Part shown: piece by piece, positions 32,037 to 33,839 of the stretch
Layout of the letters: each line of letters starts with the position of its first letter
How positions within the stretch are numbered: the stretch's first letter is position 1
Assembly (NCBI GenBank): GCA_025451315.1
Contig: JANWKP010000388.1
Span: forward strand, 1 to 36,915
DNA length: 36,915 nt
Source: Nitrososphaerales archaeon
GTDB taxonomy: Archaea > Thermoproteota > Nitrososphaeria > Nitrososphaerales > Nitrososphaeraceae
Direction of reading: 5' to 3'
Notes under the pieces: model-generated
The model's input: the letters and a program-made list of their open reading frames with translations, nothing else
Databases searched by the model: none
Told to the model about the DNA's origin: nothing
Made by a program: the position numbers and the translations under genes

Positions 32037-33470
32037 ATGTCTAATGATCAAGACAGTTTGAAAAATAAGCAATTTTCAAGGCGGGAATTTCTGAAACTTT
32101 TGGGAGCAGGATCGTTGTCTCTTGGGGTGGGTATTTTTGGTATATCAAATATTCTTAAGACTTTTAAAGAAGCATCAGCAATAACAGAAGCAGCATCACC
32201 AGTTTTACAGGGGAATATGTCTAATAACAAGAACATAACTAATAATATGAATAAAATGAACAACTCGGATATTCGTCCTTTTAGTGTAAACTTTCCGGAA
32301 GTGGATCTTATCGAATTGCGCAGGCGCGTAAATGCGACAAGGTGGCCTGAAAAAGAAACGGTCACGGATCAATCGCAAGGCGTGCAGCTCGCGACGATTC
32401 AAAAACTCGCCAGCTATTGGGCAACCAAACACGATTGGCGCAAGGTGGAAGCGAAACTGAACTCCCTACCGCAGTTCATTACGGCGATCGATGGTCTGGA
32501 CATTCATTTCATCCACGTTCGCTCAAAACATGAAGATGCGTTGCCGCTCATCGTCACGCACGGATGGCCTGGGTCGATCATCGAACAGTTGAAGATTATC
32601 GATCCACTGACCAATCCCACAGCACATGGGGCGACTCCATTTGATGCCTTTCATCTCGTGATTCCATCAATGCCTGGCTACGGGTTCTCAGGAAAGCCGA
32701 CCACTACGGGCTGGGACCCCATCCGCATTGCACGTGCATGGATAGAACTCATGAAACGCCTCGGATATACACGCTATGGAGCTCAAGGCGGAGATTGGGG
32801 TGCGGTTATCACCGATCAGATGGGTGTACAGGCACCTCCGGAATTGATCGGTATTCACACCAACATGGCTGGTGCTGTTCCATCCAATGTTTCAAAGGCA
32901 ATCCAGACTGGCGGTCCTATGCCAGCCGATCTTTCAGCCGACGAAAGACACGCTTTCGAGCGGCTGAAATTCTTTTTTACTAAAGGTGTAGCCTACGCAC
33001 TTGAGATGGGAAACCGCCCACAGACACTATATGGAATTGCAGATTCACCAGTTGGCCTAGCCGCCTGGATCCTCGACCACGATTGGCTTAGTTTGGAGCT
33101 TATGTCAGGTATTTTTGAAGGGCATCCAACAGGCCCTACACGAGGTGATGTGTTCAAAACAAGCCTTACACGCGACGATATACTCGATAACATCACGCTC
33201 TACTGGTTGACAAATACTGCGATTTCTTCGGCGCGTCTTTATTGGGAAAACAAGTTGCCCTTTTTCGACGTAAAACACGTATCTATCCCAGTTGCCGTGA
33301 GCGCCTTCCCTTACGATATCTATACTCCTCCACGAAGCTGGGCAGAGCAAGCCTATCCCAAACTTATTTATTACAAGGCGCACGACAAAGGCGGTCATTT
33401 TGCAGCCTGGGAACAACCACAACTCTTTTCAGAAGATGTTCGCGCAGGCTTCAGACCACTGCGCAAATAG
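32037..33470 (+). CDS. Tat-exported epoxide hydrolase (EHN-type N-terminal domain plus alpha/beta hydrolase)
   Basis: 477 aa; Tat motif SRREFLKLLGAGSLSLGVGIFG; PFSVNFPEVDLIELRRRVNATRWPE; HGWPGSIIEQLKIIDPL; AQGGDWGAVI. Confidence 0.95.
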   Translation: MSNDQDSLKNKQFSRREFLKLLGAGSLSLGVGIFGISNILKTFKEASAITEAASPVLQGNMSNNKNITNNMNKMNNSDIRPFSVNFPEVDLIELRRRVNATRWPEKETVTDQSQGVQLATIQKLASYWATKHDWRKVEAKLNSLPQFITAIDGLDIHFIHVRSKHEDALPLIVTHGWPGSIIEQLKIIDPLTNPTAHGATPFDAFHLVIPSMPGYGFSGKPTTTGWDPIRIARAWIELMKRLGYTRYGAQGGDWGAVITDQMGVQAPPELIGIHTNMAGAVPSNVSKAIQTGGPMPADLSADERHAFERLKFFFTKGVAYALEMGNRPQTLYGIADSPVGLAAWILDHDWLSLELMSGIFEGHPTGPTRGDVFKTSLTRDDILDNITLYWLTNTAISSARLYWENKLPFFDVKHVSIPVAVSAFPYDIYTPPRSWAEQAYPKLIYYKAHDKGGHFAAWEQPQLFSEDVRAGFRPLRK

Positions 33471-33503
33471 TGGAGCAGGGGATGCCCTGATGCTTTCACG
33501 TTT

Positions 33504-33525
33504 GACCGCATCACGCGGTCTTTTT
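33504..33525 (+). terminator. bacterial-type intrinsic terminator hairpin
   Basis: gaccgc-atcac-gcggtc followed by ttttt, 34 bp after the epoxide hydrolase stop. Confidence 0.75.
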
Positions 33526-33839
33526 GGTTAAATGCATCATTATTTGGTTTTGTTTTATTAGTTGTATTGGTTATAGGTAGTCCTAGTGTTAATATTTCGA
33601 AAAAGTAAGAAAAATTAAAGAAAATTAAAAATATTATCAACTGTTAGTGATTATAAAAATAATTATTTGTTACCATCATCAAAAGAGAAAACAAATATGG
33701 ATGAAATGAATATTGAATCAATGATTAGAGAAATGGAAAAGATAGAAATGCTAAAGGACATTGAAAAAACAGATAGAAAAAGAAGTATTTTTAATAATTA
33801 ATATGACTAGAAACTATTACAAATACGCCTAATGCTTTG

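Follow-up and report, generated by a model that had tools for sequence, protein, structure and literature searches.

A bacterial-type epoxide hydrolase core behind an in-frame, host-type Tat leader in a Nitrososphaerales archaeon

The window (the whole stretch of DNA analyzed, 36,915 nucleotides, or 36.9 kb) is contig 388 of a 4.04-Mb assembly in 398 contigs, with a completeness of 92.8% and a contamination estimate of 4.0%. On its forward strand, at positions 32037 to 33470, lies an intact open reading frame of 477 amino acids that encodes a microsomal-type epoxide hydrolase. The family is defined by an EHN domain at the amino terminus with an alpha/beta hydrolase domain after it, and both are present in that order (Pfam EHN, E = 4e-38; Abhydrolase_1, E = 6e-7; both above the curated cut-offs); the core also matches the solved epoxide hydrolases 5f4z, 4i19, and 1qo7 over its full length. 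When aligned with about 80 homologues and 1qo7, the protein retains the complete catalytic set, namely the nucleophile D253 (32793-32795), the HGxP motif as HGWPG, Y320 (32994-32996), Y402 (33240-33242), D427 (33315-33317), and H454 (33396-33398), all on the forward strand; for the two tyrosines and D427 we assume the roles generally ascribed to these positions in the enzyme family. Judged from these residues, the enzyme would be expected to hydrolyze epoxides to diols. At the charge-relay position it has Asp427, where 79 of the 82 aligned rows, and all but two of the aligned bacterial EHN relatives, have Glu; besides the window enzyme, only two Microvirga rows carry Asp. A Glu404Asp substitution in the microsomal epoxide hydrolase of the rat raised Vmax 23-fold and 39-fold for two substrates (PMC5104800). 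The window enzyme also contains a 10-residue insertion, PTRGDVFKTS (33135-33164, forward strand), which occurs in none of the aligned homologues and is a low-confidence loop in a structure model of modest overall confidence (mean pLDDT 70.7).

The first 48 residues (32037-32180) form a Tat signal peptide of host type, in which the twin-arginine motif SRREFLK (residues 14-20, 32076-32096) is followed by a hydrophobic stretch (residues 21-40, 32097-32156) and an AxA-type end, ASA, at residues 46-48; the features of a Tat substrate can thus all be read from the sequence. A linker rich in Asn and Met, and in A+T, follows (residues 49-78, 32181-32270), and homology with bacterial enzymes begins at residue 79, where the catalytic core (32271-33467), to which alignment, composition, and phylogeny assign a bacterial origin, starts. 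The genome has the corresponding machinery: a divergently transcribed tatA upstream of the hydrolase (31454-31774, reverse strand, 106 amino acids; PF02416, E = 2e-13; TIGR01411, E = 1e-13, just below the cut-off of that model) and a TatC encoded elsewhere in the assembly (G000:C241). Tat-dependent export of the hydrolase is therefore predicted.

The tatA region is 84% identical at the DNA level to a related genome (G001) up to position 31888 and diverges beyond it, so that the loss of similarity marks the onset of the hydrolase with its leader. On the tatA side lies a decayed, multicopy IS240-type transposase element of about 730 bp with broken frames (30400-31140, reverse strand); at least 10 copies occur in the same genome and many in related genomes, at 70-87% identity, and a longer copy in another genome (G005) matches DDE_Tnp_IS240. 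On the other side, starting about 320 bp past the terminator described below, is a probable transposase remnant (33840-34276, forward strand as taken from the match) that partially matches a DDE_Tnp_1 gene of G001 and is directly repeated, over about 440 bp and with 87% identity, at 15719-16160. Mobile elements flank the segment, and they are candidate carriers of it. No tRNA gene that could have served as an integration site was found within the window, and an Rfam search of 30300-34700 returned no match. Two further repeat pairs are present in the window: a direct one of 160 bp (17418-17576 and 22379-22537, 76% identical), outside the listed genes, and an inverted one of about 80 bp (6534-6615 and 21346-21426, 79% identical). 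The final 126 bases (36790-36915) recur, with up to 100% identity, at the termini of several further contigs of the assembly, indicating that the contig stops within a dispersed repeat.

We located the borders of the foreign DNA by composition. The preliminary description of this locus had reported an A+T-rich start (20 of 60 G+C at 32041-32100) and a jump in G+C from about 32280 to 33520 (35 of 60 at 32701-32760). Recounting gave 19 of 60 and 35 of 60, respectively, and a two-change-point likelihood fit (log-likelihood gain 126) places the G+C-rich block at 32295-33520, with 51.1% G+C inside and 24.5% outside. The left edge falls a short way into the region of homology, which starts at residue 79 (32271), and the right edge is the final base of a hairpin beyond the stop codon. 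Codon usage, which had been proposed as a check, gives the same picture: synonymous third-position G+C (GC3s; Met and Trp excluded) is 0.46 in the core, compared with 0.185 in the 21 other genes of the window that served as host reference (p = 2e-32), whereas the leader plus linker, at 0.27, lies between host and core, is not distinguishable from the host (p = 0.07), and differs from the core (p = 0.003). The signal peptide taken separately (residues 1-48) has a host-like GC3s of 0.26. Within the core, 8 of 45 third positions at which bacteria conserve G or C have turned to A or T, a shift that exceeds that of most compared bacterial rows, although low-G+C bacteria reach as much.

The foreign block has as its right border a G+C-rich 3' tail that ends in a hairpin and five T residues (33471-33525, forward strand). 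The 50-nucleotide tail (33471-33520) has 60% G+C, a value reached by none of the 2594 overlapping 50-mers taken from host intergenic DNA of the window (maximum 52%). The hairpin, GACCGC-ATCAC-GCGGTC-TTTTT (33504-33525), has a perfect 6-bp stem with a predicted energy of -10.7 kcal/mol, and a hairpin-plus-T element of such strength is found only here on both strands of the window; its shuffle probability is 0.0005 to 0.003, although weaker criteria would not have singled it out (a looser scan gives two sites in 3.8 kb, with 2.1 expected). Composition says that the terminator arrived together with the foreign block. The earlier proposal that it was carried over from the donor is compatible with the composition and with a hairpin beyond chance. 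The identical hairpin accompanies none of the 97 homologues compared, and the stretch just before it shows a partial likeness to the 3' region of only one (L152, whose genome was sampled from the phylum to which the Chloroflexota locus L005 belongs).

Homologues of the core occur in many bacterial phyla (57-74% identical by blastp), and matches at the DNA level were found on 264 plasmid records, among them several from haloarchaea. Over the full core, identity to the nearest relatives is about 74-76%. In the tree, the core is nested within the bacterial radiation but isolated, on a long end branch (0.27-0.30) with no supported sister; a grouping with an archaeal homologue, which would have spoken against bacterial transfer, was rejected for the full-length copy of another genus (G467; AU p = 3e-7). 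No donor above 75% identity was found among 400 genomes of the phylum to which L005 belongs and 396 of that of another locus (L004). A recent transfer would call for a close donor within a bacterial clade, and no relative above about 76% over the full length was found. The transfer therefore appears to be bacterial and independent of the G467 copy, and the best identity of about 76%, the long unplaced branch, and the partial A+T drift of third positions suggest that it was not very recent, contrary to the 'recent' event initially proposed.

The initial proposal also took the enzyme to be normally cytosolic and retargeted by the fusion. This premise fails, because most homologous loci carry a leader at the same junction: about 49 of 80 are Tat-like and about 15 more are Sec-like, that is, otherwise hydrophobic (classes assigned by a simple rule, an RR motif plus a hydrophobic stretch, with a few loci misclassified). 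Export rather than a cytosolic location is the norm for this subfamily, and the novelty of the transfer would lie in the change of leader. Despite the many Tat leaders among them, none of the bacterial homologues examined has the same leader and linker sequence; a homologue carrying both had been named as a finding that would undo the proposal. In local alignments the window leader resembles archaeal Tat leaders of the form SRR[DE]FLKLLGAG (scores 60-83) more than any bacterial homologue leader (48 or less), a contrast that is partly inflated because the archaeal set was retrieved with the window leader as query. The best match, at 83, is a probable Rieske protein from the same order; a protein of the same genome scores 62. 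DNA searches of the same and related genomes for the source of the leader yielded nothing but a 36-bp stretch, 89% identical, that covers the Tat motif of one Rieske-type gene from a genome of the same family (G402). The archaeal likeness may also be convergent, since Tat signals in general follow the consensus SRRxFLK.

The hydrolase gene is absent from five other genomes of the same genus, one of them 98% complete, and of 70 genomes of the family 5 others have a match. The G467 copy (L138) is full length with one frameshift and no visible Tat leader; it is nested among Acidobacteriota and shares 90% identity with the homologue of a genome retrieved by an Acidobacteriota-centered search. The G403 and G466 copies are fragments, the former grouping with other bacteria (support 99/99); the G447 copy is a fragment at a contig end, and the G436 copy has 40% identity. 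G467 and G466 have upstream DNA in common (75-79%), so the locus seems to be shared in their genus. Taken together, the copies elsewhere in the family belong to other genera, are mostly broken, and include at least one separate acquisition. Those of G447 (L141) and G436 (L139) are more distant EHN hydrolases that lie in G+C-richer stretches, which suggests further arrivals of this type of enzyme in the archaeal family. Between the end of the window linker (AATAATATGAATAAA...GATATT) and the beginning of the G467 copy, which has no leader, there is a weak resemblance (a fraction of about 0.01 in shuffles, one effective test), which is at most suggestive of an older start codon inside the present linker and of a leader added after arrival. 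The 5' core sequence that the four archaeal copies share was considered as evidence for their common descent and discarded, since bacterial loci such as L015, L062, and L058 are nearly as close.

We conclude that this is an interdomain transfer with leader replacement, in an enzyme family that is widely transferred and commonly exported. The reading that we favor, with a probability of about 0.72, is that a bacterial core and about 50 bp of donor 3' DNA, including the terminator, now stand behind an in-frame Tat leader and linker of the host lineage, giving an intact, Tat-exported EHN hydrolase; the composition borders, codon use, and leader alignments all accord with the fusion first proposed. 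The host-lineage leader and low-complexity linker would have been joined just ahead of the core. The hydrolase would fold in the cytoplasm and be directed by SRREFLK through TatA and TatC; outside the membrane, Asp253 would attack the epoxide while Tyr320 and Tyr402 activate the ring oxygen, and His454 with Asp427 would then activate water to release the diol. Its likely role may be the removal or use of epoxides in soil. In a more specific and distinctly tentative version, a leaderless bacterial hydrolase landed beside tatA, captured a Rieske-type host Tat signal, and stayed intact, while the other copies, in sister genera, fell into decay as frameshifted or truncated remnants, one or more of which had arrived separately and without a leader.

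An unlikely alternative is that the whole gene, Tat leader included, is bacterial, and that the chimera is only apparent, the weakly constrained leader and linker having drifted first. Signal peptides evolve quickly, and this account would draw on the prevalence of Tat-like leaders among the homologous loci, on a leader GC3s slightly above that of the host, and on an MSND start in common with some Burkholderiales leaders, which counts against a host leader. Drift should, however, affect synonymous sites equally, yet those of leader and core differ; the unconstrained 3' tail has kept its 60% G+C, so that an A+T-rich leader calls for more than drift; and archaeal Tat leaders give the better alignments. 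It is highly improbable that a single old acquisition accounts for all copies in the family, with vertical descent to the window gene and lineage-specific losses elsewhere. Finding copies in the window genome, G467, G403, and G466 within one family, the upstream DNA common to G467 and G466, and the linker end are in keeping with it, and recombination within the gene could still hide a shared ancestry of the 5' end; the Acidobacteriota affinity of the G467 copy and the rejected clade largely refute it for G467, and the G403 fragment sides with other bacteria. Least probable of all is a misjoining of a bacterial stretch into an archaeal contig: for all the fragmentation and the 4% contamination estimate, this would take two independent joins, one in frame at a domain border and the other exactly past a terminator, and it would leave unexplained both the A+T-shifted third positions of the core, unlike those of close bacterial rows, and the similar blocks that lie within host-like DNA in other genomes of the family.

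The favored reading, a bacterial core behind a host-lineage leader, describes a clear interdomain transfer with sharp borders on both sides, in which the foreign part can be told from the host-type part. That the enzyme has reached one archaeal family repeatedly, and has often decayed there, suggests that soil bacteria steadily supply it with epoxide hydrolase genes, and prompts one to ask whether retention depends on a working host export signal. Among known systems, Cif of Pseudomonas aeruginosa resembles the predicted state of the window enzyme in being a secreted prokaryotic epoxide hydrolase; set apart here by description only, it belongs to a subclass in which His replaces one Tyr (PMC8244358). 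The G467 copy is likewise a bacterial-type EHN hydrolase within archaeal-type DNA, and differs in its missing Tat leader, its frameshift, its closeness to Acidobacteriota copies, and its independent acquisition. The Aspergillus niger epoxide hydrolase (1qo7) is of the same family and has an aligned nucleophile, tyrosines, His, and Asp charge-relay residue, with roles that we again presume from general knowledge; its alignment score is about half that of the bacterial relatives, and it has no Tat leader. Soil-bacterial EHN-type hydrolases have the same domains and catalytic residues, about 57-76% core identity, and in most cases a Tat-like or Sec-like leader, whereas the window enzyme is set apart by its archaeal host, host-type leader, Asn/Met-rich linker, and 10-residue insertion. 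One bacterial genome, that of Microvirga tunisiensis (G474, the genome of locus L003), contains several related epoxide hydrolase matches, three of which are clustered on its contig 500.
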